From positions 1-60,716 of the forward strand of contig NZ_JAGQEG010000028.1 in the NCBI RefSeq assembly GCF_018305005.1: a stretch of DNA of 60,716 nt. Reading direction: 5' to 3'. How positions within the stretch are numbered: the first letter of the stretch is position 1; each line of letters opens with the position of its first letter. The translations under genes were made by a program, and so were the position numbers. The DNA comes from Collimonas silvisoli (GTDB lineage: Bacteria; Pseudomonadota; Gammaproteobacteria; Burkholderiales; Burkholderiaceae_D). A model generated the notes under the pieces. It was not told where the DNA came from, searched no databases, and saw only the letters and a list, made by a program, of their open reading frames with translations. Positions 9,123-24,662 of the stretch are shown in pieces.

Positions 9123-9583
9123 TCTTTGTCCTTTCAATGACACATATTTCTGCTGCGTGAAAATCGCCCAGGAAATTGCATGCCGTCTGACAGGCGCAAT
9201 TCATCCCACATCGAGTGCCGCAACGACCATGCTTGACGTCGCGGTTAATCTGCTGAAATTCTGCAAAACGCAAATAACGTGCCAACGGCGGATATTCAAT
9301 AACGGCCTTGCATCAATGGCAGCGCTAACAAATATCGTCAGTTTTTTTGTTTTTAGAGCAAATTTCAGTCGGAACTGAACTGTCCAATTTCGTGCTTACG
9401 AAAACCATTCACTAAAAGGGCGAGGAGGGAGAGGGAAATGGAACGAAGGGCCGGCTGCAGTCAAGCGCTGACTGATTGTATCCATGATTGAATTTGCGGG
9501 CACGAAGCGATTCGTGCCCTCAGTTTCAATCATCCAGATCTCAGCAGGCCTGGTCCAGACGATCCAGGAGTGACGCTTACGAA
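9123..9583. other. Intergenic region between the lyase and porin genes
   Basis: A 461-bp gap that should hold the lyase promoter and the porin transcript end. The only clear structure is the perfect hairpin at 9498-9519 (listed separately). ORFs at 9010-9378 (+) and 9396-9587 (-) show no family features and I reject them. No confident promoter was found. Confidence 0.4.
9498..9519 (-). terminator. Hairpin downstream of porin, possible terminator
   Basis: Perfect 9-bp inverted repeat, GGGCACGAA / TTCGTGCCC, with a 4-nt loop, 65 bp beyond the porin stop. There is no clean U-tract on the minus strand, so it may stabilise the 3' end rather than terminate by itself. Confidence 0.5.
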
Positions 9584-10696
9584 TCAAAAGGAGGTGACCA
9601 TACCCAAATAGACGCCGCTCTGATTCCGGCCAACGGCTGGATTATCGAAATTGTTATTGTTAGCGCCAGGATTATTTCCTGCTACACCAAAATTCGAATT
9701 TTCACCGTTCATTACATGGGCTACGGTACCGTACAAGAACGTCCGTTTGGAGAGGTTGTACATTCCGCCTACAGCTAACAAGGTTGCATGCCCCGACGCA
9801 TCATGAGTGGCGTCACCATTGCCGCTGCCGACTTTAACTCGATAGATAGCGCCGTCCAGTAAGAACTGCGGGCTCAATTGATATTTCGCTCCGACCCATA
9901 CGTGGTCAGCCGTTTTTGCCAGGCCGGCAGGTGTGTCTGGAGCATTGAGATGATTGTAGCCCGCCATCATCGTCAGGCTGCGATAAGTCACGGCCGCCCC
10001 AGCGAAAAGTTCGTTAGAGTAGAGGAAGACATTGCTCAATTGTCCATTGGAATCACGCAACGTATCGTACATCGCGCGAAGCATGATTCCGTCATTTCGG
10101 TACGTCAACTGGACACCTTCGCTACGACCGTAACTTCCGGCGGCGCCCCGATTGAATCCGTTTGCCTGATTTCCCAAGGCCATCTGTGCATACACATCGA
10201 ATCCGCCAAATTTGGACGATTGCCAATCAACATTGTTACTGGTGATGGGAACACTACGTCCTCGAATCAGCGAAGCTGCGGAATATGTGGCTTCAAACAT
10301 CGGATCGGCATCCCACTGGCCGTTTGCAATGAAGAGATTGCGGCCCAACGTGACGCGTCCAAATTTTTCCGACTGCAAACCGACGAATGCCTTTCGATTG
10401 AACAATTGGTTGCTTGCACCTGTAGATGCACCGGTCATGACGTTGAAACCGGCTTCCAGATTTAGAATCGCCGATAAGCCATTGCCGAGATCTTCCGATC
10501 CGGTCAGACCTAGATAGCTAGCGCCCCAATCGCTACTTTGAGCACGCCAACGAGAGGCAGAGCTACCGTCCGTAGCTCGAATAGACGTCGTGTAATCGAA
10601 ACCTACGTCCAGTCGACCATAGATCGTTACATTACTTTGGGCGTGCGCCAACGCTGTTCCGCCGAGAATGACGGCGGCGACCATGACTTTCTTCAT
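9584..10696 (-). CDS. Gram-negative outer-membrane porin (Burkholderiales type)
   Basis: General-diffusion porin of 370 aa, a 16-stranded trimeric beta-barrel type by family. A signal peptide (MKKVMVAAVILGGTALAHA) is followed by SNVTIYGRLDVGFDY, the standard first strand. The C terminus ends in Phe, as needed for BAM-dependent insertion. Many alternating polar/aromatic strands are visible (NVDWQSSKFGGFDVYAQMAL; KYQLSPQFLLDGAIYRV). GGAGACAAA precedes the ATG. It lies downstream of the hydroxyquinol/sugar operon on the same strand but is separated by a hairpin (10875-10905) and 246 bp, so it probably has its own promoter. It likely admits the substrate of that operon. Confidence 0.93.
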   Translation of the reverse strand: MKKVMVAAVILGGTALAHAQSNVTIYGRLDVGFDYTTSIRATDGSSASRWRAQSSDWGASYLGLTGSEDLGNGLSAILNLEAGFNVMTGASTGASNQLFNRKAFVGLQSEKFGRVTLGRNLFIANGQWDADPMFEATYSAASLIRGRSVPITSNNVDWQSSKFGGFDVYAQMALGNQANGFNRGAAGSYGRSEGVQLTYRNDGIMLRAMYDTLRDSNGQLSNVFLYSNELFAGAAVTYRSLTMMAGYNHLNAPDTPAGLAKTADHVWVGAKYQLSPQFLLDGAIYRVKVGSGNGDATHDASGHATLLAVGGMYNLSKRTFLYGTVAHVMNGENSNFGVAGNNPGANNNNFDNPAVGRNQSGVYLGMVTSF

Positions 10697-10942: not shown

Positions 10943-12007
10943 CTACACAGCGGGGAGCGCACCCTCCCAAGCGCGTTGCAGCAGAGCTCGCAACGGTTTA
11001 TCTTCAACCGGACGTGGATTCCAATAAGGATTGGAAATGGCAATTTCACAAGCTTTGTCCAGGTCACTCTCTGCCATTCCGATATCCCTCAGGCCAGCCG
11101 GCACCCCAAGCTCACGAGACAACGTATAGATAGCAGCAGCAGCGTCCGTACTACCCAGGGCGCGTGCCACCCGAGACATTGCGTCAGGAGCGGCCGCAGA
11201 ATTATAGGCAAGTACATGCGGTAGTATTATTGCGTGCGTTTCCGCATGAGGTAAGTTAAACGATCCTCCTAAGGTATGGCACAACTTGTGATGCAGCGCC
11301 ATTCCGACGTGCCCCAGCACGGTCCCGCAAAGCCAGGCCCCATAGAGACAATCGCTGCGCGCCTCAATATCTTGGGAATCGGCATTCAGATTACGCATTC
11401 CTTTGGCAAGTGCACGAATTCCTTCTTCGGCCATCAGCGACATAACAGGATTGCTGTCTCTTGCATATAGGCCCTCCGCCGCGTGAGCGATGGCATTCAA
11501 TCCGCTGACAAATGAAATCTTCGTCGGTAGGCCAACTGACAGTTGCGGATCATAAATGACTGTGCGAGGAAGAACGCGCATATCGCGGCCGGTTCGCTTG
11601 ATGCCGTCTTCAGTGATGCCGAAAATAGGCGTCATTTCGGACCCTGCGTATGTTGTCGGTATGGCGATAATGGGCAGGGAGGATTCCAGCGCGATGGCTT
11701 TTCCAAGCCCGACAGTAGATCCGCCGCCAATTACCACGGCACAATCAGCTCCCACCTGGAGCGCATGTGCGGTGGCCGCTCTGGCGGTTTCAATCGGTAC
11801 GTGCATGACGGCGCCGGCATAAATTCCGGCACATCGATTTCCCAGCAGCTCGGCTACGGCATCTGCTTGAGCTCGCTGTTCCGGCGTGCACAGCACCAGC
11901 GCCCTGCATGCACCAAGCGCCTCCACTTCCCGCTCTATATGTTTAAGGCTGCCCAATCCGAAGACCACCCGCGACGCGTTGGTCGTATAAGTAAAGTCGT
12001 AGGTCAT
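10943..12007 (-). CDS. Maleylacetate reductase (iron-type alcohol dehydrogenase family)
   Basis: NAD(P)H-dependent reduction of maleylacetate to 3-oxoadipate, the step after hydroxyquinol ring cleavage. The 354-aa length and opening FTYTTNASRVVFGLGSLKHI match the family. The nucleotide loop is GGGSTVGLGKAIAL (near 96) and the PTTYAGSEMTP motif follows near 118. Metal-region histidines appear in HHKLCHTLGGSFNLPHAETHAIILPH. The start codon shares one base with the upstream Dabb stop (TAATG), implying translational coupling. With the dioxygenase at 19750-20673 it forms the two-step hydroxyquinol lower pathway; 3-oxoadipate CoA-transferase and thiolase genes are not in the window. Confidence 0.93.
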   Translation of the reverse strand: MTYDFTYTTNASRVVFGLGSLKHIEREVEALGACRALVLCTPEQRAQADAVAELLGNRCAGIYAGAVMHVPIETARAATAHALQVGADCAVVIGGGSTVGLGKAIALESSLPIIAIPTTYAGSEMTPIFGITEDGIKRTGRDMRVLPRTVIYDPQLSVGLPTKISFVSGLNAIAHAAEGLYARDSNPVMSLMAEEGIRALAKGMRNLNADSQDIEARSDCLYGAWLCGTVLGHVGMALHHKLCHTLGGSFNLPHAETHAIILPHVLAYNSAAAPDAMSRVARALGSTDAAAAIYTLSRELGVPAGLRDIGMAESDLDKACEIAISNPYWNPRPVEDKPLRALLQRAWEGALPAV

Positions 12008-12384
12008 TATCGATCCGTATTTTCCGAGAGTGCCGGATTACCAACCGGCGCAAGATAGTCAACTTGATGCCGGGCGATTCGACAGTCGCCCAGCACGTCT
12101 TTGATGCGTAAATGCTCAGGGTGCGATGCGTATGCAGCCAATGACTCTGGCGACTCAAACTCCATATAGAGAACCACATCGCACGCATAATCCACGCCGC
12201 TCACATCCAGGCCAACCTCAACCTTAGTCATGCCAGGAATTTTTCCGGCCAGATCCTCAAAGCAGCGCTTGACGAAAACAGCAGTTTCACGCTTCTTTGC
12301 GGGCGTGTCGCCGCGGATATCCCACATGACAATGTGCTTCATCATCAACTTGCCCTGGATTGTTGCTGCCATCTGGTTTGTCAT
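12007..12384 (-). CDS. Dabb-family (dimeric alpha+beta barrel) protein
   Basis: Stress-responsive A/B-barrel domain protein of 125 aa. The core MKHIVMWDIRGDTP...KIPGMTKVEVGLDVSG...DVVLYMEFESPESLAAYASHPEH is typical: the N-terminal His strand, the PG turn and YxxHPxH. The first ATG (12384) has GGTGGA upstream; starts at 12345 or 12342 would begin at the domain itself. Dabb proteins include the plant polyketide cyclase olivetolic acid cyclase, but most bacterial members have no known activity. Position inside the operon, with its stop fused to the reductase start, argues for a catalytic or accessory role in this pathway. Confidence 0.85.
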   Translation of the reverse strand: MTNQMAATIQGKLMMKHIVMWDIRGDTPAKKRETAVFVKRCFEDLAGKIPGMTKVEVGLDVSGVDYACDVVLYMEFESPESLAAYASHPEHLRIKDVLGDCRIARHQVDYLAPVGNPALSENTDR

Positions 12385-12489
12385 TAAAATTTTCCACCAA
12401 CGATTTTGAAATTCACAAAACCAAGTCGATCACCCTTAAGTTTTCCGATTACTCCGCTTAGCCACCATAAGGCGGCTAAGCGAAAGAAT

Positions 12490-13698
12490 TTACATCTTGT
12501 TCTTGTTGTACACGTCGAAGAACACCGCTGCCAGCAATACCAGGCCTTTTATAACTTGCTGATAGTCGACGCCAATTCCCATGATTGACATGCCATTGTT
12601 CATGACTCCCATGATGAATGCTCCGACAACGGCACCCATGACTTTTCCAACGCCGCCAGAGGCCGACGCGCCACCGATAAAGCAAGCCGCAATTACGTCC
12701 AGTTCAAAACCGGTACCGGCCTTTGGCGTCGCGCTGTTGAGACGGGCGGCAAAGATCAACCCTGCCAGGGCGGCAAGAATGCCCATGTTGATGAAAGCGT
12801 AAAAGGTAACCCGTTCTGTCTTGACGCCGGAGAGCTTTGCAGCCTTCACATTCCCGCCGACCGCATAAACACGACGACCGATCGTTGTCCGATTCATGAT
12901 GAACGTGTACAGGCTGATCAAAACACCCATAATCACCAGGACGGTCGGCATGCCGCGATAGCTTGCGAGCAGATAGCTCGAAGCCACGACGAGAGCGGCC
13001 AGAATCGAATTCTTGATAAAGAACATGGCAAACGAGCCATTCTTCAAACCGTGCTTCTCGGCGCTGCTACGCTGGCGCCATTCGATCACAAAGAACAAGG
13101 CGCCCACAACAAGACCCAAAAGCAGAGAAGTGACCCGTAACTCGGCGCCATGGAAGAAATCAGGAATGAAACCGGAGCTGATTATTGCAAATGCTTCTGG
13201 AAACGGTCCAATCGATTGCCCATCCAGCGACAGGATCGTGAGTCCGCGAAACACCAGCATCCCGGCCAAAGTCACAATGAACGACGGCATTCTCCAGAAT
13301 GCTACCCAATATCCCTGGGCCGCACCGATAAGCGCACCCGCGGCGACGCAAAGGAGCGTGGCAGTCAGGGCGTTCAAGTTGTAGTGAACCATCAGCAATG
13401 CGGCCAGGGCGCCGATGAAGCCTGCAGTGGAGCCCACGGAAAGATCGATGTGTCCGGCAACAATGACCATCAACATGCCCAGAGCCATAATCACAATGTA
13501 GCTATTCTGTAGTACAAGATTCGTCAAGTTGAGCGGCTGCATCAACACGCCGCTCGTCGACCATTGGAAAAATCCCATAATCAGGATGAGTGATATCAAT
13601 AGCCCGTACTCCTGAAGTCCGCGCTTCAGCGACGCCGCTATTTCGGTTCTATTTGCGGGGCCGTTTTGCGGCGCCGTTGTCATCAATGCTTCGCCCAT
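12490..13698 (-). CDS. gguB: Sugar ABC transporter permease, GguB/MmsB type
   Basis: Inner-membrane permease of a CUT2-type (ribose/xylose/multiple monosaccharide) ABC importer, 402 aa, with about ten hydrophobic segments. The conserved NLVLQNSYIVIMALGMLMVIVAGHIDLSVGS stretch is present, as is GGNVKAAKLSGV. I chose the ATG at 13698: it follows the ATPase stop by two bases and has GGAGG 7-8 nt upstream. A start at 13713 would overlap that ribosome-binding site. It acts with the ATPase at 13700-15229 and the binding protein at 15322-16395. The large size and sequence place it with the ChvE-GguAB group. Confidence 0.92.
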   Translation of the reverse strand: MGEALMTTAPQNGPANRTEIAASLKRGLQEYGLLISLILIMGFFQWSTSGVLMQPLNLTNLVLQNSYIVIMALGMLMVIVAGHIDLSVGSTAGFIGALAALLMVHYNLNALTATLLCVAAGALIGAAQGYWVAFWRMPSFIVTLAGMLVFRGLTILSLDGQSIGPFPEAFAIISSGFIPDFFHGAELRVTSLLLGLVVGALFFVIEWRQRSSAEKHGLKNGSFAMFFIKNSILAALVVASSYLLASYRGMPTVLVIMGVLISLYTFIMNRTTIGRRVYAVGGNVKAAKLSGVKTERVTFYAFINMGILAALAGLIFAARLNSATPKAGTGFELDVIAACFIGGASASGGVGKVMGAVVGAFIMGVMNNGMSIMGIGVDYQQVIKGLVLLAAVFFDVYNKNKM

Positions 13699-13699
13699 T

Positions 13700-15229
13700 T
13701 CAGTTACCTCCATTTTTTACGATTGCTCGCATGATCTTTTCCTGGCTGACTTCCTGGGCCGAGAATTCACCGACAAATCGGCCTTCATTCATGACATAGA
13801 CACGATCACACATTCCTAGCAGCTCAGGCATCTCTGAGGAAATCATGACGACGCATTTACCTTCGGCCACCGCTTGGTTGATGATCGAGTAGATTTCGTA
13901 CTTGGCGCCCACATCAATGCCACGCGTCGGTTCGTCAAGAATAAGAACCTCGGGTTGGGAATACAGCCATTTGCTGATTACGACTTTTTGCTGATTGCCA
14001 CCGGAAAGATTGCCGACTGGCTGGCCGCCGTTCTGGCAGCGAATGCGCAGTCTCTGGAGAAAATCCTTGGCGACAGAAATTTCCTGATGATCGTTGATGA
14101 CACCGCATTTCGAAATACCCGGCAAATTGGCCAGCGTGATATTTCGCTCAATCGAATCATTTAGAAGCAGGCCGTTTCCCTTGCGGTCTTCGGTTACATA
14201 TGCCAGGCCGTTTGAAATTGCCTTCGGCACTGTAGAGACGTCTACTTTTTTCCCGTGCACAAGTACCTCGCCACGAATACCCTGGCCGTATGCGCGGCCA
14301 AAAATACTCATCGCGAGCTCGGTTCTCCCTGCTCCCATAAGTCCTGCGATACCGACAACTTCACCTGCGCGAGCGTAAAAATTAACGTTCTTCACGATTG
14401 CACGATCTCGTTGCGCCGGGTGCTGGACATGCCAGCCCCGAACTTCAAATATCGTCTCGCCGATCTTGGGTATGCGTTTGGGATAACGGTCTGCCATCTC
14501 GCGACCAACCATGGCACTGATAATGCGATCCTCGCTGATCTCTTCAGCTTTGCAATCGAGCGTATCGACAGTGGATCCGTCCCGGATCACCGTGATGGCG
14601 TCCGCAACGCGTGAGATCTCGTTCAATTTGTGAGAGATGATGATCGCTGTCACCCCCCGGGATTTCAGCTCGAGCAGCAGCTCCAGCAGTGTGTCGCTAT
14701 CTTTTTCGTTAAGACTGGCGGTAGGTTCGTCGAGAATCAGAAGCTTGACTTCTTTCGACAACGCTTTTGCGATTTCTACCAGTTGCTGCTTGCCGATACC
14801 CAATGCGCCGATCAGCGTATCGGGCGAATCGTTTAATCCGACCTTTTGCAGCAGCTGCTTTGTTTTCGCGTAGGAAGAGGCCCAGTTGATGACCCCGGAT
14901 CTGGATTGTTCATTGCCGAGGAAAATATTCTCGGTAATGGATAGCATCGGCACTAAAGCCAGTTCCTGATGAATGATGATAATGCCAACTGATTCGCTGT
15001 CATAAATCGATGAAAACTCCCGCCCGGCGTGGTCGTAGACAACTTCACCTGAGAATGCGCCATGCGGATACACTCCGCTCAGGATTTTCATCAGTGTCGA
15101 CTTGCCTGCGCCATTTTCACCGCATATGGCGTGAATTTCGCCTCTGCGCACAGTCAGATTCACGTTATCCAGCGCTTTCACGCTACCGAAACTCTTCTGA
15201 ATGCCTCGCATCTCAAGGATTGGATCCAT
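13700..15229 (-). CDS. gguA: Sugar ABC transporter ATP-binding protein, GguA/MmsA type
   Basis: Duplicated ABC ATPase (509 aa), as usual for CUT2 sugar importers. The first half has Walker A GENGAGKSTLMK (near 39), signature ALGIGKQQLVEIAKAL and Walker B LLILDEPTASL. The second half has GLMGAGRTELA and the signature LSGGNQQKVVISKWL, followed by VLILDEPTRGIDVGA. The first signature lacks the classic LSxGQ, which is common in this family's first domain. GGGGGA precedes the ATG. It energises uptake by GguB with the ChvE-like binding protein. Confidence 0.94.
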   Translation of the reverse strand: MDPILEMRGIQKSFGSVKALDNVNLTVRRGEIHAICGENGAGKSTLMKILSGVYPHGAFSGEVVYDHAGREFSSIYDSESVGIIIIHQELALVPMLSITENIFLGNEQSRSGVINWASSYAKTKQLLQKVGLNDSPDTLIGALGIGKQQLVEIAKALSKEVKLLILDEPTASLNEKDSDTLLELLLELKSRGVTAIIISHKLNEISRVADAITVIRDGSTVDTLDCKAEEISEDRIISAMVGREMADRYPKRIPKIGETIFEVRGWHVQHPAQRDRAIVKNVNFYARAGEVVGIAGLMGAGRTELAMSIFGRAYGQGIRGEVLVHGKKVDVSTVPKAISNGLAYVTEDRKGNGLLLNDSIERNITLANLPGISKCGVINDHQEISVAKDFLQRLRIRCQNGGQPVGNLSGGNQQKVVISKWLYSQPEVLILDEPTRGIDVGAKYEIYSIINQAVAEGKCVVMISSEMPELLGMCDRVYVMNEGRFVGEFSAQEVSQEKIMRAIVKNGGN

Positions 15230-15321
15230 ATTTCCCCCAATTTTCTACGCGCCATGCCCGTATGGCAGATCAGCCTGAAACTAGCCGGACGCGCCGGCCA
15301 GGCATGACTACGGTTTGATGC

Positions 15322-16395
15322 TTATTTCAATTGCGCTTCGGTGTAGTAGCGACCACGTGTGACCAGCGCTTCTTTCCAGTTGCCCGCGTCGACTAGCATT
15401 GGTTTCACAAGGTAGGTCGGCACAATCTTGACGCCGTTGTTATAGCTTTTGGTATCGTTGACCTGTACGGGTTTTCCGGTCAGAGAGTCGACGACAATAT
15501 CGGCGGTGCGGGAAGCCAGCTCACGCGTATCCTTGAATACCGTTGTCGTTTGATCGCCGCGGATAATCGCTTTGATGTTTGGAATTTCGGCATCTTGGCC
15601 GGTGACAATCGGCATCTTTTGCTGAGGGGCGCCATATCCGACACCTTTCAGCGACGAGATGATGCCGATCGCGACTGCGTCGTTCGGTGCCCAGACCGCA
15701 TCAAGGCGAGCGCTGCTGTAGAACGCGCTCAAGAGGTTATCCATGCGGGATTGCGCGGTCGCGCCATCCCAGCGGTAAACCGATACTTTCTCGATCGCAG
15801 CCTGCTTGCTTTTTAAAACAAACTTGCCGCTGTCGAAATAAGGTTTCAACACCGACATGCCGCCAGCATAAATCTTGTGAGCATTGTTGTCGTCGATCGA
15901 ACCGGCGAAGATTTCTATGTTCCAAGGTTTTTTGGCGCCACTTTTTTCGTAGGCGCTGACAATGCTCTGTGCTTGCAACACACCAACCTGATAGTTGTCG
16001 AATGTCGCGTAGTAATCGACTTTGTTGGTCTGCGTGATAAATCGATCATATGAAATGATTTTAATGCCGCGGCTGCTTGCGCTTTGCAGAACGTCCGACA
16101 GGGTTTTTCCGTCGATTGGAGCGATTACCAGGGCTTTGACGCCTTTGGTCACCATGTTTTCAATCTGATTGACTTGAGTCGGCACATCGTAATCGGCATA
16201 TTGCAGATCAGCCGCATAGCCTTTTGCTTTCAATGCCGCAACCATGCTTTGACCGTCAGTCATCCAGCGGGATTCTGTTTTGGTTGGCAACGAAATGCCG
16301 ATCGTTCCCTTTTCTTGTGCAAAGCTGGCTGAAGATGTTACGGCCAAAGAGCAAGAAACGGCCATCGCAAATGCGAATTTCTTGATTGTATTCAC
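15322..16395 (-). CDS. chvE: ChvE-like periplasmic sugar-binding protein
   Basis: Periplasmic binding protein of 357 aa. I chose the GTG at 16395, with GGAGA 7-8 bases upstream, because it starts directly at a normal signal peptide (NTIKKFAFAMAVSCSLAVTSSASFA); an upstream ATG at 16476 would add 27 unlikely residues. Mature regions track Agrobacterium ChvE closely from memory: QYADYDVP, QIENMVTKGVKALVIAPIDG, YYATFDNYQVGVLQA, VSGQ-like VTGQDAEIPNIKAIIRG and VNDTKSYNNGVKIVP. ChvE binds several aldoses; related CUT2 systems import myo-inositol. The ligand here is unproven. Confidence 0.93.
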   Translation of the reverse strand: MNTIKKFAFAMAVSCSLAVTSSASFAQEKGTIGISLPTKTESRWMTDGQSMVAALKAKGYAADLQYADYDVPTQVNQIENMVTKGVKALVIAPIDGKTLSDVLQSASSRGIKIISYDRFITQTNKVDYYATFDNYQVGVLQAQSIVSAYEKSGAKKPWNIEIFAGSIDDNNAHKIYAGGMSVLKPYFDSGKFVLKSKQAAIEKVSVYRWDGATAQSRMDNLLSAFYSSARLDAVWAPNDAVAIGIISSLKGVGYGAPQQKMPIVTGQDAEIPNIKAIIRGDQTTTVFKDTRELASRTADIVVDSLTGKPVQVNDTKSYNNGVKIVPTYLVKPMLVDAGNWKEALVTRGRYYTEAQLK

Positions 16396-16498
16396 TTGAT
16401 GTCTCCTTCTATTTTTGATTTTGTCATCGCTCACCAACGACGCGCGGAAGCCGCGCGCCGAGAGCCGGCTCGCCACAACACGAATGGACTTCGCTCTT

Positions 16499-17587
16499 TC
16501 AATCTATGAAAACTTCGCCTCCGGCCTGTTTGCTGGACGCAAACAAAGCTTCGATCACTCGGCTGATGTTGTAGGCCTGCGTTGCAGACACCGCTGACGC
16601 TGTGCCGTTGCGCAAGGCATTGAAAAATGCATTGGACTCCCGATCGAAATAGATCGGATTGCCGATTTCCGCGAGCTCCGGCGAATACTCGGTCTTCTTC
16701 GTAGCCCAGATTTCAGGAAAACTTGTCTCTTGCCATTCCGTCCATCCCTCGGCATGTTTTCCCTTGCCGGAGTCGTAAATCTTGTAGCTGGCCGGCAATG
16801 AGCGCGAAGACATAATTCCTTCAGTGCCGTAGGCGGTGATATCCCAGCTCTCGGTCCACGGCAAGACGTCCCATGACATGAAGTCAAGCACGACCACTTT
16901 ATCTTCGTAGTTAAGTACGGCGCCCGCTGCATCCTCTCGCGATTCGTCACCGCGAAAATTGGGGAATTTCGTGATGCGGGCATTGACCGACTTCGGCATG
17001 CCGAAATGAAGAAGGACGCGGTCTACAAGATGGCATCCGATGACAAACACGGCGCCGCCAATATCTCCGGGCTGCGTCATATGGCTGGTGCCGGCTTCAT
17101 CGTGCGAACATCCGCCATGCGCTCGAACCTGCAATACCTTGCCCAGTCGGCCCGATTGCAAAGCCTCTTGCATGGCATCGACGGACGGTGCGAAGCGCCA
17201 GCAATAGCCGACCTGAACCAGCCCGCCGGTTCGCTCTACGGCTTTTACTATGCGCTGGGCATCTGCGGCGCTTCTACCTGCCGGCTTCTCAACCAGCACC
17301 GCTTTGCCTGCTTCAAGCGCTTCAATCGCTAAATCGGCCATCTTGTCGCTCTTGGAGTGAACGAGAACGGCATGCACATCGGGATCGGCCAGGATATCTT
17401 CCTTGCTGCGCACTTCCAGGCCGAGCGCCTCAACAAACGGTTTCAACAAAGGACTGCTGTCCCATGCACCGATCATCCGGGCGTCTTTGCGTCGCTGAAT
17501 TGCTTTAACTCGGCCAGAAGTATGAGGATGGGTAATGCCCAAACAAGCAATTCCGGCTACTTGATCTGCCCCGATTGTGTAAGTCAT
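16499..17587 (-). CDS. Gfo/Idh/MocA-family oxidoreductase with atypical dinucleotide loop
   Basis: NAD(P)-dependent dehydrogenase of the Gfo/Idh/MocA family, 362 aa, acting by family on sugar or cyclitol hydroxyls. The cofactor/substrate lysine motif EKP is at 100-102 (VEKPAGRSAADAQ) and the second-domain acid-base pair is GCHLVDR (H186, D189). The N-terminal nucleotide loop reads LGITHPHTSG rather than the usual GxGxxG. It lies 56 bp downstream of the IolG-type gene on the same strand. Two dehydrogenases in one operon suggest either two successive oxidations or an oxidation followed by a reduction. The substrate is unknown. Confidence 0.85.
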   Translation of the reverse strand: MTYTIGADQVAGIACLGITHPHTSGRVKAIQRRKDARMIGAWDSSPLLKPFVEALGLEVRSKEDILADPDVHAVLVHSKSDKMADLAIEALEAGKAVLVEKPAGRSAADAQRIVKAVERTGGLVQVGYCWRFAPSVDAMQEALQSGRLGKVLQVRAHGGCSHDEAGTSHMTQPGDIGGAVFVIGCHLVDRVLLHFGMPKSVNARITKFPNFRGDESREDAAGAVLNYEDKVVVLDFMSWDVLPWTESWDITAYGTEGIMSSRSLPASYKIYDSGKGKHAEGWTEWQETSFPEIWATKKTEYSPELAEIGNPIYFDRESNAFFNALRNGTASAVSATQAYNISRVIEALFASSKQAGGEVFID

Positions 17588-17642
17588 GTCGTCTTCTCCA
17601 TTTATGATTTCTCTATTGCACCCGACTCAACCTGATCCGGCA

Positions 17643-18638
17643 TCAAGCCAGACTTGAAACCTGCACCGGCTTACCCGTCAACGCAGATTGCAGAGCGCAC
17701 TCAGCCAGACGCAAAGCTTCAAGACCATCTCGAACGGTTGTTGGCATCGGCGCATTGTTTTTGATTGCGTCGACAAATGCTTCCAGCTCGTTTTTGTATG
17801 CGTCGACGTAACGTTCAAGGAAGAAATTCAGCAAAGGTTCGCGGGCGTCGGTTGTCTCCGCTGTCCACCGGCGGATAGTGGATGGACGCAGATTGTCCTG
17901 CAGCAGCATGCCCTTGGAGCCGGAGACCTCGAAGCGCTGGTCATACCCGTACACGGCTTCGCGGCAGCAGTTGATGTGGCACTGCTTGCCTGATGCCGTA
18001 CGCATCTGGACCATGATCGTATCGAAGTCATTCAGTTCTGCAAGCGATGAGTCAATCAGGCGATTACCCATGGCCATGACTTCAACCGGCTCTTCGCCCA
18101 GCAGCCAACGTGCCGTGTCGAGATCATGGATGACCATGTCGCGGAAAATTCCGCCAGAGTGAAGCACGTAGTCCCGCGGTGGCATGCCCGGATCGCGGCT
18201 GGAGATAATGACTTGACGGATATCTCCGATTTCGCCCGCATCAATTGCTTTTCGGAACGCTTGGGAGGTAGGATCAAAGCGGCGGTTGAATGCCAACATC
18301 ACTCTGCCATTTAAGCGCTCTACTTCCGTTGCAGCTTCAGTTGATTTGAGCATGTCAAGATCGATCGGCTTTTCGCACAGCACTGCTTTACCTTTGCGTA
18401 CGGCCTGGAGCATGTAGGTAATGTGGGTATCCGTCGGCGTTCCGATGACGATTGCATCCACATCGTCGCGATCGATTGCCGCAGAACAGTCGGTAGTGGC
18501 GTCGCACCCCAGTCGCACGGCAAGCGCTTTAGCGGAGGCCTCAACCGGATCGGCTACCTTAGCGTTGAGGCTTGCGGCTACGTTGGAAGCATGAATTTTA
18601 CCAATGCGTCCGGCACCTAAAACAGCGATTCTAATCAT
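17643..18638 (-). CDS. Inositol 2-dehydrogenase-like protein (IolG family)
   Basis: Gfo/Idh/MocA dehydrogenase of 331 aa with strong IolG features: GAGRIGKIHA (8-17), the CEKPIDL motif with Lys90, and GGIFRDMVIHDLD, giving Asp167 and His171 in the positions of the IolG catalytic Asp-His pair. IolG oxidises myo-inositol to 2-keto-myo-inositol with NAD+. The neighbours lack the canonical iolB, iolC, iolD and iolJ, so the ketone probably does not enter the standard inositol route. GGAGATGAA precedes the ATG. Substrate could be another cyclitol or a sugar. Confidence 0.88.
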   Translation of the reverse strand: MIRIAVLGAGRIGKIHASNVAASLNAKVADPVEASAKALAVRLGCDATTDCSAAIDRDDVDAIVIGTPTDTHITYMLQAVRKGKAVLCEKPIDLDMLKSTEAATEVERLNGRVMLAFNRRFDPTSQAFRKAIDAGEIGDIRQVIISSRDPGMPPRDYVLHSGGIFRDMVIHDLDTARWLLGEEPVEVMAMGNRLIDSSLAELNDFDTIMVQMRTASGKQCHINCCREAVYGYDQRFEVSGSKGMLLQDNLRPSTIRRWTAETTDAREPLLNFFLERYVDAYKNELEAFVDAIKNNAPMPTTVRDGLEALRLAECALQSALTGKPVQVSSLA

Positions 18639-18775
18639 TTCATCTCCAAAGATTTATACATGCGAAGGAAGCGGTATCCACATCGCAAATTCATAAAATT
18701 AAAAATTGGCCTAATTCCGCAAGAAGCTATTTCCTGGTCGCGCGTGACTGCGACGATAGTCGGAAAGCATGCTGC

Positions 18776-19660
18776 CTATACTCGCTTGCGGGCCTCGACC
18801 GCTGCGAACTGCGCCATGGTTGAGTCAAAGGCGCGCTTGGCCATCTCTTCCAACGGCAGTTTGCGGAACGATTGCGAAAGAATTTCGACGCCGTAGTAAG
18901 GGCCGGCGAAGCCTGCCTGCTGGACAGCTTCAATGAAGGCCGGAGCGTTATAAACACCTTCCCCGCAAAGGCGGCGATTGAAGCGTGTGTCCTCAAAAAG
19001 AGTGCCGACGACTTGTTCATCCGCATCATCGAGTTCTATCGACTTGATGAATCGGGAGGGAATTTTTGCAATCTCGTCATAGCTGCTTCCGCCGCGCACG
19101 ACATGCCATGTGTCGACAGTCAACCCGCCATTTGGCTGATCTGCAGCTTCAACGATCGCGAGTCCATCTTGAATGTTGCGAACAATCGAGAACGGCATGA
19201 ACTCAAGAGAGACGGTCGCACCAACTGAACTTACTTCTTCACAAAGCTTCGCGAACTCGGCAGCCATGCGAGGAAAATCGGCTGGCCCCTCATCCGCAAA
19301 ACTTGCCCCGATTTTCAGGTTGCGCATACCAAGCGCTCCGCCCAATTCAATGACATCTCGACGGAATTGATCCGATGCTGCTCGCAACTCACCCGACTTG
19401 TACCAATCGACAAGGATTTCGAGCTCGAAGTGTTTCATTCCGTTATCGGCCAAGATATTTCTGACTCCCGACACACCGACTTGAGCAACTGCGGCCTTCA
19501 GGTCATCAAGCACCAGGCCGATGCCCTTCCAACCAGCCTTGGCTGCAGCTTCTGCACGCGCCTGCAAAGGAAATGGGCTCACCTCGCTTGGCGCACATGG
19601 ATATACGTCACCGGCGATAGTCCAATACGCAGCAAGCAGATCAATGCTGTTTTCATTCAT
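18776..19660 (-). CDS. IolE-like sugar phosphate isomerase/epimerase family protein
   Basis: TIM-barrel (AP-endonuclease-2/xylose-isomerase-like) enzyme of 294 aa. Likely metal ligands are E153 (SLEFMPF), D183 and H186 (VDTWH), E209 and E234 (CGEG). The family includes 2-keto-myo-inositol dehydratase IolE, 3-dehydroshikimate dehydratase and 3-keto-C-glycoside cleaving subunits, all of which eliminate next to a keto group. That chemistry fits a position right after a ketone-forming dehydrogenase. GGGAG precedes the ATG. I cannot tell dehydratase from epimerase by eye; the dehydratase reading is inference from context. Confidence 0.82.
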   Translation of the reverse strand: MNENSIDLLAAYWTIAGDVYPCAPSEVSPFPLQARAEAAAKAGWKGIGLVLDDLKAAVAQVGVSGVRNILADNGMKHFELEILVDWYKSGELRAASDQFRRDVIELGGALGMRNLKIGASFADEGPADFPRMAAEFAKLCEEVSSVGATVSLEFMPFSIVRNIQDGLAIVEAADQPNGGLTVDTWHVVRGGSSYDEIAKIPSRFIKSIELDDADEQVVGTLFEDTRFNRRLCGEGVYNAPAFIEAVQQAGFAGPYYGVEILSQSFRKLPLEEMAKRAFDSTMAQFAAVEARKRV

Positions 19661-19749
19661 TTGTCATTACTCCCAATTTTTGTTCAAACCAAAGGTGTGA
19701 TCTACTTGAAATCGCACAATCTGAATTACTCGGCTGACGCGGTTTAAGC

Positions 19750-20673
19750 TCAGGTTTTAACTGCGTTGTCAGGTTTCTTATGTGCGAGCGTGAAATCCCA
19801 TTTAACTTTCCAGAAGGGTGCGGTCACCCCTAGCTCTCGAGCGGCGTCTTCGTCTGTCACTTCTATGAATTCCGCCACAAGATCGCGCTTCACTCCGAAC
19901 ACGGTGTCTTCTGCCAGATATGGACAGTCCGGCGCGAAGATATGCGTGATGACCGGCTCAAAGCCTGGCGCAGCTACAATGAAATGCAAATGGGCAGCTC
20001 GATTCGGGTGTCGTCCCAGGCAGCGCAAGAGCTTGCCAACGGGACCGTCATCAGGAATTGGATAGTGACGCGGTTTGACAGATTTGAACCAGTAGCTGCC
20101 GCTGTCGCTGGTGCTGAATACCCCTCGCAAATTGTGGTCTGGCTGCAGGTCTTTTTGCTGGACGTCATAAAACCCATCGTCATTCGTCTGCCAGACATCA
20201 AGTGTTGCATTGGCAATCGGGTTGCCGCTCACATCCAATACTCGGCCTGAGATCACCATAGACTGTCCCTTTCCATCCAGGCAGATATTTGCTCCGTTTT
20301 CGTAACGCGGGGCATTTTCAACATAGAAAGGGCCAAGGATGGTATTAGGAGTCGCTCCGCTAGGACGTCGATGATTAATCGCATCGACCAGCATCGACAC
20401 GCCAAGCACGTCGGACAAAAGAATGTATTCCTGACGCCAATCGGAGCACATTTTCCCGGTTTCCGTCAGAAATTTGATTGCAGCCAACCATTCGTTATGC
20501 GTCGGCTCAATTTCTTTGATGGCGGCGTGTAGATGTTTGACCAGGACCGTCATTACGTCGCGCAAACGCGGTGAAACATCCACTCCCATCCGGGAGTTCA
20601 CAACCTCCGCAGAATTTTCTTCTTCGAAATACGGCAGGTTTTCAATCGTTGACTTCAACGTTTGCTTGGGCAT
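19750..20673 (-). CDS. Intradiol ring-cleavage dioxygenase, hydroxyquinol 1,2-dioxygenase type
   Basis: Fe(III)-dependent intradiol dioxygenase of 307 aa. Iron ligands are visible: Y169 (GFYDVQQ), Y204 (PRHYPIPDDG), H228 and H230 (RAAHLHF). The helical N-terminal dimerisation domain (about 1-115) and the TILGPFYVE motif fit the catechol/hydroxyquinol group rather than protocatechuate 3,4-dioxygenase. Pairing with maleylacetate reductase in the same operon points to hydroxyquinol (1,2,4-trihydroxybenzene), cleaved to maleylacetate. It is the first gene of the leftward operon, with GGAG before the ATG, and lies 114 bp from the divergent LysR start. No phenol hydroxylase or decarboxylase that would supply the triol is present. 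Confidence 0.93.
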   Translation of the reverse strand: MPKQTLKSTIENLPYFEEENSAEVVNSRMGVDVSPRLRDVMTVLVKHLHAAIKEIEPTHNEWLAAIKFLTETGKMCSDWRQEYILLSDVLGVSMLVDAINHRRPSGATPNTILGPFYVENAPRYENGANICLDGKGQSMVISGRVLDVSGNPIANATLDVWQTNDDGFYDVQQKDLQPDHNLRGVFSTSDSGSYWFKSVKPRHYPIPDDGPVGKLLRCLGRHPNRAAHLHFIVAAPGFEPVITHIFAPDCPYLAEDTVFGVKRDLVAEFIEVTDEDAARELGVTAPFWKVKWDFTLAHKKPDNAVKT

Positions 20674-20703
20674 GAGTGAGTCTCCTAATTATTTTGAATG
20701 CCT

Positions 20704-20787: not shown

Positions 20788-21699
20788 ATGAATCAGCTGC
20801 GTGAAATTGAGCTTTTCGTTCAAGTCGGTAATGTCGGCAGTATCAGCAAGGCGGCGGAGCAGTTAGAAATATCCATATCCGCTGCGAGCCGGTATTTGGT
20901 TGCTTTGGAAACCCGTTTGGGAGTTCAACTGGTGAGGCGAACGACCAGGCGGCTTTTTCTCACCGAAGCAGGAGCGGAGTTTCACCAGCGATGCAAAGGC
21001 ATTTTAGGGGACTTACGTGAGGCAGAAGACACGGTAACCGAGACTGCAATAAAGCCGACAGGGACGCTACGTGTGACAGCGTCGCTTTCCTTCTGTCTTC
21101 TACATATAACACCGCTGTTACCGGAGTTCAGTCAGCGCTATCCAGAAATTCAAGTCGAAGTCATCGCAGCCAATCGCTACTATGACATTATCGAGAATGG
21201 GATTGACGTTGCTATCCGCACGCGACAAGTCGAAGCGGATAGCAACATCACCATACGCCGGCTCGCCGAGACGCGACGAATATTAGCTGCAGCCCCTTCA
21301 TATATCGAAAAATTCGGAACGCCAGTTTTGCCACCCGATCTTAAACATCATCATATACTCAACTACGCGTTGGCAAATACGCCAAACGAACTTCCTTTAA
21401 AGCGCGGTAAAGAAAGTATCGTCACAAAAATTCGACCGCTCCTGGAAGCAAATGATGGACAAATACTTCGGCATGCAGCTATTGCCGGCATGGGTATCTT
21501 GGTCCAACCGAAATACATTGTGTATGACGATCTGGTGGCGGGGCGATTAGTCCCCGTGCTGGACGATTGGGATTTGCCTCGCCTTACCATTAACATTGCG
21601 TTTCAAACGCGCGCGCATCTTCCTGCCAAAGCTCGACTTTTTATCGATGCACTCGTTGAACGGTTCCGAATCAACGACTTTGAGCGCCTATGGTGCTGA
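20788..21699 (+). CDS. LysR-family regulator of the hydroxyquinol/sugar operon
   Basis: LysR-type regulator, 303 aa from the ATG at 20788, which gives the standard opening LREIELFVQVGNVGSISKAAEQLEIS. An in-frame ATG at 20698 would add 30 unlikely residues. The winged-helix domain spans about 1-60 (RYLVALETRLGVQLVRRTTRRLFLTEAG) and the inducer-binding domain about 90-300. It belongs to the CrgA/AaeR-like subgroup by its VDVAIRT-type motif (GIDVAIRTRQV). It is divergent from the dioxygenase gene and probably activates that operon in response to a pathway intermediate. Confidence 0.93.
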   Translation: MNQLREIELFVQVGNVGSISKAAEQLEISISAASRYLVALETRLGVQLVRRTTRRLFLTEAGAEFHQRCKGILGDLREAEDTVTETAIKPTGTLRVTASLSFCLLHITPLLPEFSQRYPEIQVEVIAANRYYDIIENGIDVAIRTRQVEADSNITIRRLAETRRILAAAPSYIEKFGTPVLPPDLKHHHILNYALANTPNELPLKRGKESIVTKIRPLLEANDGQILRHAAIAGMGILVQPKYIVYDDLVAGRLVPVLDDWDLPRLTINIAFQTRAHLPAKARLFIDALVERFRINDFERLWC

Positions 21700-21762: not shown

Positions 21763-22632
21763 TTACAAAGCAACGTTCAACGGAATCTTCAGATAACTCA
21801 CGCCATTCTCTTCCGCCGCGGGCAACACGCCGGCACAGATATTGAGTTGGATCGAAGGCAGCATCAAGGTCGGCAAGGTCAGCGTGGCGTCGCGCTGGTT
21901 ACGCATGGCGATGAATTCGCTTTCGCCGACGCCGTCGCGCACATGGATGTTTTTCGCCCGTTGCTCGGCGACTGTCGCCTCACAGGCTGGAAGCCGGCCT
22001 TCGGGCGGATAGTCGTGGCAGACGAACAACCGTGTCGATGGCGGCAAACTCAACAAGCTGCTCACTGAACGATACAAGCTGCTGGCGCTGCCGCCGGGGA
22101 AATCGCAGCGCGCAGTACCGAGATCCGGCATGAACAGCGTGTCGCCGACAAACGCTACATCCTGCTCCACCAGATAAGCCATGTCGGCCGGCGTGTGCCC
22201 CGGAACATGCAGCGCTTGGGCACGCAAGCTGCCGATGTAAAAAATCTCGCCTGGCGCGAACAAATGGTCGAACTGGGCGCCGTCCAGTAAAAATTCCGAC
22301 TGCAGATTGAAGATTTTTTTGAATACTCCCTGAACCATCTTGATCTGATCGCCGATGGCGATTGCGCCGCCCAGATGCTGACGCAGATAGGGCGCTGCCG
22401 AAATGTGGTCGGCATGGGCATGGGTTTCCAACAGCCATTGCACCTTCAAGTCCTTGCTGCGTACGAACTCAATGACGCGATCGGCCGATACCGTGGAAGT
22501 GTGGCCGGCAATCGGATCGTAATCAAGCACCGAATCGATAATCGCGCACTCGCCGCCGCCCGCCGCATAGACCACATAGGTAAACGTGGAGGTATTCCGA
22601 TCAAAAATGACTTCTATTTGTGGACTTGCCAT
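21763..22632 (-). CDS. MBL-fold metallohydrolase, persulfide-dioxygenase type
   Basis: Metallo-beta-lactamase-fold protein, 289 aa, resembling bacterial persulfide dioxygenases (ETHE1/Blh group), which oxidise glutathione persulfide to sulfite. The motif HAHADH is at 71-76 (H71, H73, D75). HVPGHTPADMAYL and VGDTLFMPDLGTARCDFPGGSA follow, the latter being characteristic of this group, then FVCHDYPPEGR with another ligand His. AAGGA precedes the ATG. It is divergent from a sulfide:quinone reductase fusion and shares a palindromic control region with it, supporting a joint role in sulfide detoxification. Confidence 0.9.
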   Translation of the reverse strand: MASPQIEVIFDRNTSTFTYVVYAAGGGECAIIDSVLDYDPIAGHTSTVSADRVIEFVRSKDLKVQWLLETHAHADHISAAPYLRQHLGGAIAIGDQIKMVQGVFKKIFNLQSEFLLDGAQFDHLFAPGEIFYIGSLRAQALHVPGHTPADMAYLVEQDVAFVGDTLFMPDLGTARCDFPGGSASSLYRSVSSLLSLPPSTRLFVCHDYPPEGRLPACEATVAEQRAKNIHVRDGVGESEFIAMRNQRDATLTLPTLMLPSIQLNICAGVLPAAEENGVSYLKIPLNVAL

Positions 22633-22683
22633 CTAACCGCATCCTTAACTTAACACTACGTAACTATATAGAAACACGCAACA

Positions 22684-22711
22684 TTGACAAAAATCCAATT
22701 CACATTATATT
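22684..22711 (+). promoter_or_regulatory. Sigma70-type promoter toward the SQR fusion gene
   Basis: TTGACA (22684-22689), a 16-bp spacer, then TATATT (22706-22711): a consensus -35 and a 5-of-6 -10 element. On the opposite strand a perfect TATAAT occupies 22709-22704 and can serve the MBL gene. Confidence 0.6.
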
Positions 22712-22731
22712 ATTAACAATCAAGTTAATAA
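22710..22731. promoter_or_regulatory. Palindromic operator shared by the divergent sulfide genes
   Basis: Perfect 8-bp inverted repeat TTATTAAC (22710-22717) and GTTAATAA (22724-22731) with the spacer AATCAA. It abuts the rightward -10 and lies upstream of the leftward -10, so a bound repressor would block both. ArsR-type sulfide sensors (BigR/SqrR group) bind AT-rich dyads in front of such genes; the actual regulator is not in this window. Confidence 0.65.
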
Positions 22732-23014
22732 GCGGTTTTTAATTGAACAGACATTTCGCTAGAGCAAAACAGGATATGCCGCAGCCCGGCGAGCGCTGAC
22801 CGCACATGGTTAACATGCATTGGCAACCTAAGGTCAATCGCTGACTTCAGTCAGTTCACCCAGGCGCCGCAAAGCATCATTATCCATTCCTTCCCTTGTT
22901 GCCATCTTCAAACAACTGCCACGACAGCAACTGCCGGCACCCCGATGTCGCCGCCTGCCAGGATTTGTGGGAAATAAGTAAAGCTCAAGTAAGTAGTGCC
23001 ACCCGCCTGTCACG

Positions 23015-24637: not shown

Positions 24638-24662
24638 TGCCGGCAGCGCAATAACGGCAAAC

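Follow-up and report, generated by a model that had tools for sequence, protein, structure and literature searches.

A putative cyclitol-to-hydroxyquinol catabolic gene cluster in Collimonas silvisoli and its relatives in other bacteria

The aromatic compounds that bacteria form for catabolism from saturated polyols are taught mainly by way of quinate and shikimate. In quinate/shikimate catabolism a cyclohexane polyol is oxidized, aromatized by a TIM-barrel protein, opened by intradiol cleavage and led to 3-oxoadipate, and each of these features, down to the superfamily of the TIM barrel, would have its counterpart in the gene cluster described here, which lies at positions 10943-20673 of a 60,716-nucleotide stretch of DNA from Collimonas silvisoli (RefSeq assembly GCF_018305005.1, contig NZ_JAGQEG010000028.1, positions 1 to 60,716; hereafter the window). 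The cluster differs, however, in lacking the protocatechuate steps and in having IolG/short-chain dehydrogenase (SDR) enzymes, a sugar transporter, a hydroxyquinol-type dioxygenase and a maleylacetate reductase. Compared with the canonical inositol (iol) pathway, with which it shares an IolG-type first step, it is without IolE, IolB, IolC, IolD and IolJ, and the ring would be opened by the dioxygenase rather than by IolD. The hydroxyquinol pathways for resorcinol, nitrophenols and chlorophenols have the same lower half, dioxygenase plus reductase, but the window operon encodes no hydroxylase to supply the hydroxyquinol. On balance, the sequences make it probable that the operon is a complete catabolic route that would turn a cyclitol of the deoxyinositol level into hydroxyquinol and then open the ring; the formation of hydroxyquinol from a non-aromatic polyol is the likelier part of this reading, and a substrate specifically at the deoxyinositol level is the tentative one.

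A further parallel is found in Corynebacterium glutamicum, for which two papers describe the following. An inositol transporter, a maleylacetate reductase and a dioxygenase are encoded in one operon, iolT2-rhcM2-rhcD2, at whose promoter 1,2,4-trihydroxybenzene interferes most strongly with the binding of the repressor IhtR, 5 mM inositol having scarcely any effect, and the rhcM2 RNA level with inositol is similar to that with indole (PMC7764795). The iol2 cluster, oxiC-cg3390-oxiD-oxiE, encodes a putative sugar phosphate isomerase (cg3390), the dehydrogenases OxiD (Km 19.6 mM for myo-inositol and 50.6 mM for D-chiro-inositol) and OxiE (Km 12.4 mM for scyllo-inositol and 51.6 mM for myo-inositol), and OxiC, which has an incomplete GxGxxG motif and Ile in place of the catalytic Asp, and whose function was left open by Ramp et al. 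(PMC9603128). Judged by the gene numbers, cg3388 and cg3389-cg3392, the two operons adjoin (PMC7764795, PMC9603128).

Ring cleavage genes and their conserved linkage to polyol genes

The nine genes of the Collimonas cluster are arranged in tandem on the minus strand, and all of them could be assigned to families by open reading frame and Pfam/NCBIfam analysis of the window. A preliminary description of this DNA had given their positions, strand and assignments correctly, save for two proteins that it had called IolE-like and a second MocA dehydrogenase (discussed below), and the dioxygenase residues Y169, Y204, H228 and H230 and the IolG residues D167/H171 that it had named were located. Its observation that the run lacks a hydroxylase, a decarboxylase and IolB/C/D/J also holds, all nine genes belonging to other families.

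The intradiol 1,2-dioxygenase (19750..20673, minus strand; PF00775 and PF04444) carries the ligand set of two Tyr and two His residues and has as its best solved relatives 6-chlorohydroxyquinol 1,2-dioxygenase (8r2x, 320 bits), PnpC (3n9t, 250 bits) and hydroxyquinol 1,2-dioxygenase (1tmx, 230 bits), compared with 135 bits for the best catechol 1,2-dioxygenase. Two protocatechuate dioxygenase models reach 56 and 33 bits, below their cut-offs of 296 and 126. The maleylacetate reductase (10943..12007, minus strand), of the iron-containing alcohol dehydrogenase (ADH) fold and with an HHKLCH motif, matches 3jzd, deposited as an iron-containing alcohol dehydrogenase, at 535 bits and the maleylacetate reductases 3w5s and 3hl0 at 407 and 393 bits. 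Because the two proteins are nearest to hydroxyquinol dioxygenases and maleylacetate reductases, the lower half of the pathway would most simply run from hydroxyquinol through maleylacetate to 3-oxoadipate, and the hydroxyquinol-type lower pathway proposed beforehand is thereby upheld at the level of sequence. In eight Pseudomonas loci (L051, L054, L056, L058, L059, L071, L076 and L093) there are two dioxygenases per cluster, one about 72% identical to that of the window and the other divergent (31-37%), on the opposite strand and mostly adjoining the reductase gene, with a DUF4440 protein alongside in some.

The conservation of the cluster was surveyed by a scan of genome contigs with an alignment of the TIM-barrel protein and one peptide pattern, the best 80 of 134 relatives being kept. 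These 80 loci are not independent, since many come from Burkholderiales and Pseudomonas, two (L065 and L068) come from one record, and some end at contig ends. A relative of the dioxygenase is present in 63 of them, of the reductase in 61 and of both in 59; as a rough yardstick for random expectation, five intradiol matches in 5.66 Mb correspond to a chance of about 2% in a 21 kb stretch. The other neighbors are Dabb (60 loci), LysR (55), MocA2 (51), IolG (45) and ChvE (31). Neighbors were scored by identity and bits, so that weak relatives were dropped (in L103, for example, two IolG-like proteins at 32-34% and a MocA2 at 38%), and two loci with a cut dioxygenase frame (L069 and L072) were scored as lacking the gene. 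The carriers belong to Burkholderiales, Pseudomonas, Rhizobiales, Rhodobacterales, Azospirillum, Arthrobacter and Geodermatophilaceae, that is, to Pseudomonadota and Actinomycetota. Viral contigs yielded no relative.

The gene order of the window, dioxygenase-TIM-IolG-MocA2-ChvE-GguA-GguB-Dabb-reductase, recurs in Paraburkholderia (L012, apparently the same locus as L048) at 60-85% identity per gene and in Azospirillum at 49-74% (L062), where there is also an annotated plasmid copy (L014) with a porin gene after it. As the order recurs in both genera, the cluster is not a chance assembly. On plasmids of Rhizobium, Agrobacterium, Shinella and Rhodococcus, SDRs take the place of IolG and the sugar transporters are different; the annotation of the Shinella stretch shows no reductase. 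The Aureimonas copy has an additional 3-oxoadipate CoA-transferase and thiolase, such genes also lie near the Agrobacterium copy, and across 89 clustered stretches (the 80 genome loci, 8 further loci and the window) the CoA-transferase subunit A and thiolase families each occur in 10; since these genes adjoin some copies, 3-oxoadipate fits as the product.

The IolG, TIM-barrel, MocA2 and Dabb proteins

The IolG-type inositol/cyclitol dehydrogenase (17643..18638, minus strand) exceeds the cut-off of the inositol 2-dehydrogenase model TIGR04380 (380.7 versus 355 bits), and the canonical dehydrogenase motifs are kept in every one of its 45 relatives above 55% identity. The TIM-barrel metal dehydratase/isomerase (18776..19660, minus strand; PF01261) is IolE-like, as it had been called, at the level of the superfamily only. 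At E<=0.001 the sole NCBIfam match is QuiC, at 42.7 bits (the model covers two domains and has a cut-off of 1200), and no IolE model is matched. Against solved proteins its profile scores 140 bits with Lmo2234, 79 with 5hmq, a fusion of TIM and 4-HPPD domains, 76 with IolI and 25 with the IolE structure 3cny, and an identity as IolE is accordingly rejected. We take 5hmq to be QuiC, given the same TIM plus 4HPPD pattern in a quinate-type cluster of the host. The predicted model (pLDDT 95.8) gives TM scores of 0.85 with Lmo2234, 0.82 with QuiC and 0.82 with IolI; 2-hydroxy-3-keto-glucal hydratase is also among the fold matches (0.65-0.67). Thus QuiC, an aromatizing 3-dehydroshikimate dehydratase, is among the nearest relatives of the protein. 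E153, D183, E259, H186 and R229 are common to it and to the host's own QuiC-like protein, and these residues together with E209 are invariant in an alignment of 45 sequences; several of the positions held in common with the QuiC-like protein belong to the active site.

The second MocA-fold protein (16499..17587, minus strand; here MocA2) is unusual. Its predicted model (pLDDT 90) has the MocA fold, with levoglucosan and scyllo-inositol dehydrogenases as best fold matches, and the top solved match of its profile is DgpA (69 bits). In all 29 aligned rows, however, the site of the GxGxxG motif is occupied by THPH and in none by GxGxxG, and the position of the catalytic Asp holds Val in 27 rows and Ile in 2. 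THPH, which in the predicted model forms residues 19-22 of the loop joining the first strand to the first helix, is present in 55 of 56 MocA2 frames from 55 loci, the exception being the latter part of a gene that is broken in two (L083). The protein therefore fits the published description of OxiC, with an incomplete GxGxxG and an aliphatic residue for the catalytic Asp. Because the nucleotide-binding and catalytic motifs are lost, MocA2 is unlikely from its sequence to be an ordinary dehydrogenase, and of the earlier assignment as a second MocA dehydrogenase the fold stands and the working enzyme is rejected. We infer instead a redox-neutral dehydratase or isomerase, a role which bears on the chemistry because the conversion of C6H12O5 to C6H6O3 takes exactly one oxidation and two dehydrations.

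In Rhizobium leguminosarum WSM1689 (L011:5403-6495) the MocA2 gene is broken into two frames, which suggests that it is decaying in some nodule strains, and a Mesorhizobium locus (L083) likewise has it in two frames. The Dabb (dimeric alpha/beta barrel) protein (12007..12384, minus strand; PF07876, 71.5 bits) is a candidate for a second dehydratase or an aromatizing isomerase; a YciI protein lies next to it, or replaces it, in 12 of the 89 stretches.

The proposed route and its alternatives

In the route considered here, a quercitol or viburnitol (C6H12O5), with conduritols or 2-deoxy-inososes as near alternatives, would be imported through a porin and the ChvE/GguAB transporter. IolG would oxidize the ring carbon beside the CH2 group to a ketone, the TIM protein would take out the water beta to it, a second water would be lost through MocA2 or the Dabb protein, or through the TIM protein acting again, and the ring would tautomerize to hydroxyquinol (C6H6O3), which the dioxygenase would open to maleylacetate, and the reductase would give 3-oxoadipate. 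On paper, a ketone next to the CH2 group followed by two beta dehydrations leads to 1,2,4-trihydroxybenzene, and a ketone elsewhere to pyrogallol. There is a chemical precedent, in which a protected inosose treated with base loses two alcohols to give a 1,2,3,5-tetraoxygenated benzene (PMC11467972). The deoxyinositol level is favored because inositol would give a tetrahydroxybenzene, whose cleavage misses maleylacetate, and the conversion of a polyol to hydroxyquinol is supported by the presence of sugar-type transporters, by the absence of a recurring aromatic hydroxylase among the neighbor families named, and by the response of IhtR in C. glutamicum to 1,2,4-trihydroxybenzene (PMC7764795). 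The protein families, the conserved linkage and the missing motifs are supported by sequence; every reaction, the assignment of the two dehydrations and the substrate are inferred.

Several observations weigh against this route. The choice of the protein for the second dehydration is a guess, the fourth metal position of the TIM protein, Glu209, is Gln in the host QuiC-like protein, and the literature matches listed include no account of bacteria growing on quercitol. No dioxygenase was scored within 10 kb in 17 of the 80 loci (including the two with a cut frame), neither dioxygenase nor reductase is present in 15, among them both Bacteroidota loci (L086 and L088), and no dioxygenase relative lies near the distant TIM homologues of Actinomycetes (30-38% identity) in any of the seven genomes inspected. 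Furthermore, 35 of the 80 loci were scored without IolG, and as many of these have SDRs, the dehydrogenase leaves the substrate unfixed. In C. glutamicum, OxiD performs better on myo-inositol than the canonical IolG (61 mM; PMC9603128), which favors a role in inositol metabolism there and is the reason why the high Km values of OxiD and OxiE were rejected as a sign of another substrate.

An inositol-level pathway, in which an inositol isomer or a demethylated methyl-inositol would be oxidized to an inosose and lose two waters to form a tetrahydroxybenzene that the dioxygenase opens, is the alternative suggested by the IolG score above the inositol 2-dehydrogenase cut-off, by the action of OxiD and OxiE on myo-, D-chiro- and scyllo-inositol (PMC9603128), by the base-induced aromatization of the protected inosose (PMC11467972) and by a PhyH-type oxygenase family of 15 Burkholderiales loci that could demethylate the substrate. 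We consider it unlikely. Ring opening would not give maleylacetate, yet the reductase accompanies 61 of the 80 loci and 3-oxoadipate genes some of them, and the behavior of IhtR and of rhcM2 RNA with inositol, as far as it is described, speaks against it (PMC7764795). Canonical iolD, moreover, is already present elsewhere: in the host it exceeds the cut-off only on another contig (C35, 926.7 bits), and it does so in 16 of 20 cluster-bearing genomes searched, the others being Polaromonas, Pseudomonas PB101, Azospirillum and Geodermatophilaceae. A pure inositol pathway was rejected on this ground, and the cluster, as judged from these genomes, is neither a substitute for the iol pathway nor dependent on it. 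The independence from IolD claimed in the preliminary description is upheld, and of the co-occurrence without iol genes that it had suggested looking for, the linkage of dioxygenase (63 of 80) and reductase (59 with both) is found, with no iolD over the cut-off in 4 of the 20 genomes. Likewise rejected was a protocatechuate/quinate cluster, since the protocatechuate models fall below their cut-offs and a separate quinate/shikimate-type cluster is found on host contig C33 (L013:3700-15526). The latter comprises a shikimate dehydrogenase-like protein, adjacent QuiC-like TIM and 4HPPD-like proteins, a PcaR-type regulator, protocatechuate 3,4-dioxygenase, PcaB, a fused PcaCD, a shikimate-type transporter and a porin. 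It follows an analogous scheme with a carboxylated substrate, and in this respect speaks for the proposed route.

It is improbable that the hydroxyquinol arises by ordinary aromatic degradation, from an aromatic compound whose hydroxylase gene lies elsewhere, with the polyol genes serving a separate function in the same operon. The dioxygenase and reductase are indeed classic lower-pathway enzymes, and oxygenases lie beside some clusters: the PhyH-type (Fe/2-oxoglutarate) family in 15 loci, all from Burkholderiales and including L024, L032 and L033, and a luciferase-like monooxygenase family in 6 of the 89 stretches. The PhyH enzyme, which is absent from the window's cluster, might hydroxylate or demethylate the substrate and so widen its range in those strains. 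The linkage of polyol enzymes, sugar transporter, dioxygenase and reductase across classes, however, argues against a separate function, and an aromatic hydroxylase family does not recur. FAD_binding_3 has 21 matches in the host genome and none inside the window. The recurring neighbor families of the 89 stretches, each named from one representative, include SDR, LacI, porin, sugar transporters, PhyH-type oxygenase, zinc ADH, NADPH-dependent FMN reductase, SnoaL/DUF4440 and luciferase-like monooxygenase, among others; neither an FAD aromatic hydroxylase nor a glycosidase or sugar-remnant gene is among those named. A hidden Markov model (HMM) of four host FAD_binding_3 proteins, which as a positive control recovered 4 of 5 further host loci, matched three open reading frames in the 80 loci. 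One is in a locus without a dioxygenase (L064); the other two, in dioxygenase-bearing loci and so a point in favor of this alternative, lie outside the operon, that of L039 (2762-5146, 26.8 bits) upstream and that of L054 (20220-20864, 43 bits) at the edge, truncated where the stretch breaks off. Within the scope of this control, namely FAD_binding_3-type enzymes and the named recurring families, homologous clusters are not consistently accompanied by a hydroxylase, which the preliminary description had named as the observation that would count against it; the PhyH and luciferase-like families are the caveats.

The DgpA-type systems consist of a MocA oxidase with an NAD-binding GxGxxG and a catalytic Asp, together with partner proteins. 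A deglycosylation of aryl- or C-glycosides, in which C3 of the sugar would be oxidized, the TIM protein would catalyze the elimination and the freed triol aglycone would be opened, is suggested by a MocA fold adjoining a xylose isomerase-like TIM barrel, by the DgpA and levoglucosan dehydrogenase matches of MocA2 and by the glucal hydratase fold match. MocA2 has neither of the two motifs, though, the TIM protein is closer to QuiC and IolI than to the glucal hydratase, and C-glycoside deglycosidase systems differ in that the window also has a dioxygenase and a reductase. This reading is weakened by the missing motifs and by the lack of a glycosidase among the named families, and appears slightly less probable still than ordinary aromatic degradation. 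In sum, the sequences support the hydroxyquinol lower pathway, the independence from IolD and the conserved linkage to polyol enzymes in the absence of a recurring hydroxylase that the preliminary interpretation had put forward, whereas its IolE and second dehydrogenase do not survive.

Setting of the cluster and its wider meaning

The remaining genes of the unit, all on the minus strand, encode the CUT2 sugar ABC transporter: the GguB permease (12490..13713; NF040906, 570 bits, cut-off 450), the GguA ATPase (13700..15229; NF040905, 847.5 bits, cut-off 810) and the ChvE-type periplasmic binding protein (15322..16476; NF040907, 467.8 bits, cut-off 460). The match of the last to the ChvE structure 3urm (423 bits) begins at residue 54, and its true start probably lies some tens of codons inside the frame. 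A divergent LysR regulator (20788..21699, plus strand; the frame opens at 20698, with homology from residue 31) and a porin at the downstream end (9584..10696, minus strand; Porin_4, PF13609) probably belong to the unit too, the porin, a probable entry point through the outer membrane, because the Azospirillum plasmid copy likewise has one after its reductase gene. The porin family occurs in 22 of the 89 stretches, including the window, and lies upstream of the cluster in Paraburkholderia. The G+C content of the cluster is 52.8%, versus about 56.6% in both flanks, and among 300 genomes searched from the host's order the TIM gene is found (E<=1e-20) in 2, the host's own and one of another family; this rarity and the lower G+C content suggest horizontal acquisition. 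The MocA2 profile is matched in 1 of 274 genomes of the host's class, the host's own, and among 296 genomes of the class to which the Geodermatophilaceae genome belongs, MocA2 is found in 2 and TIM in 8, that genome included in both counts.

Next to the porin, the window encodes an alginate-lyase-like protein whose C-terminal domain is of the LamG/concanavalin type (6909-9143). At 21763-26945 an MBL-fold hydrolase gene is divergent from that of a beta-lactamase-hydrolase-like phosphatase/pyridine nucleotide-disulphide oxidoreductase fusion, and a P-type ATPase gene follows, a group which we take to resemble sulfide detoxification genes. Among related loci, a Burkholderiales variant (L043-L047) has an amidohydrolase and a different MocA protein, with FMN reductase and YciI in several, and perhaps serves an aminated or acylated cyclitol. 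In one actinomycete genome (L146 and L147) a single region holds genes for distant TIM, IolG-like, MocA2-like and CUT2 transporter proteins, and no dioxygenase relative was found in the stretches taken; the shared upper pathway may be completed differently there.

In Geodermatophilaceae a single stretch (L103) holds LacI, MFS, IolG, TIM, dioxygenase, reductase, MocA2 and a further IolG, and is a bridge between the layouts of the window and of C. glutamicum, whose IolT2 transporter is presumably of the MFS type. With iol2 and iolT2-rhcM2-rhcD2 the latter has inositol dehydrogenases, a putative isomerase, the motif-less OxiC, a transporter, a reductase, a dioxygenase and a repressor responsive to 1,2,4-trihydroxybenzene. 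The published readings, so far as the available text goes, are inositol redundancy and a response to aromatics and indole, and the repressor is of the IclR type. To judge from the kinds of parts and the gene numbers, we suggest that this pathway may also be present in C. glutamicum.

Among the matches listed from the open-access literature, to which subscription papers mostly do not belong, no paper unites inositol-type dehydrogenases, the TIM protein and hydroxyquinol cleavage in one pathway. It is possible, though we regard it as rather doubtful, that the cluster represents a widespread, unrecognized pathway of cyclitol aromatization in Pseudomonadota and Actinomycetota, with OxiC/MocA2 as a dehydrogenase fold repurposed as a redox-neutral dehydratase or aromatase. 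If true, this would explain why an inositol transporter shares an operon with hydroxyquinol genes in C. glutamicum and would suggest functions for cg3390 and OxiC. A second route of this kind, starting from carboxyl-free cyclitols, would be an unrecognized counterpart of the textbook route from quinate; it would link sugar-type with aromatic catabolism, give a fate to plant polyols of the quercitol type, and offer enzymes that make benzenetriol from cyclitols.

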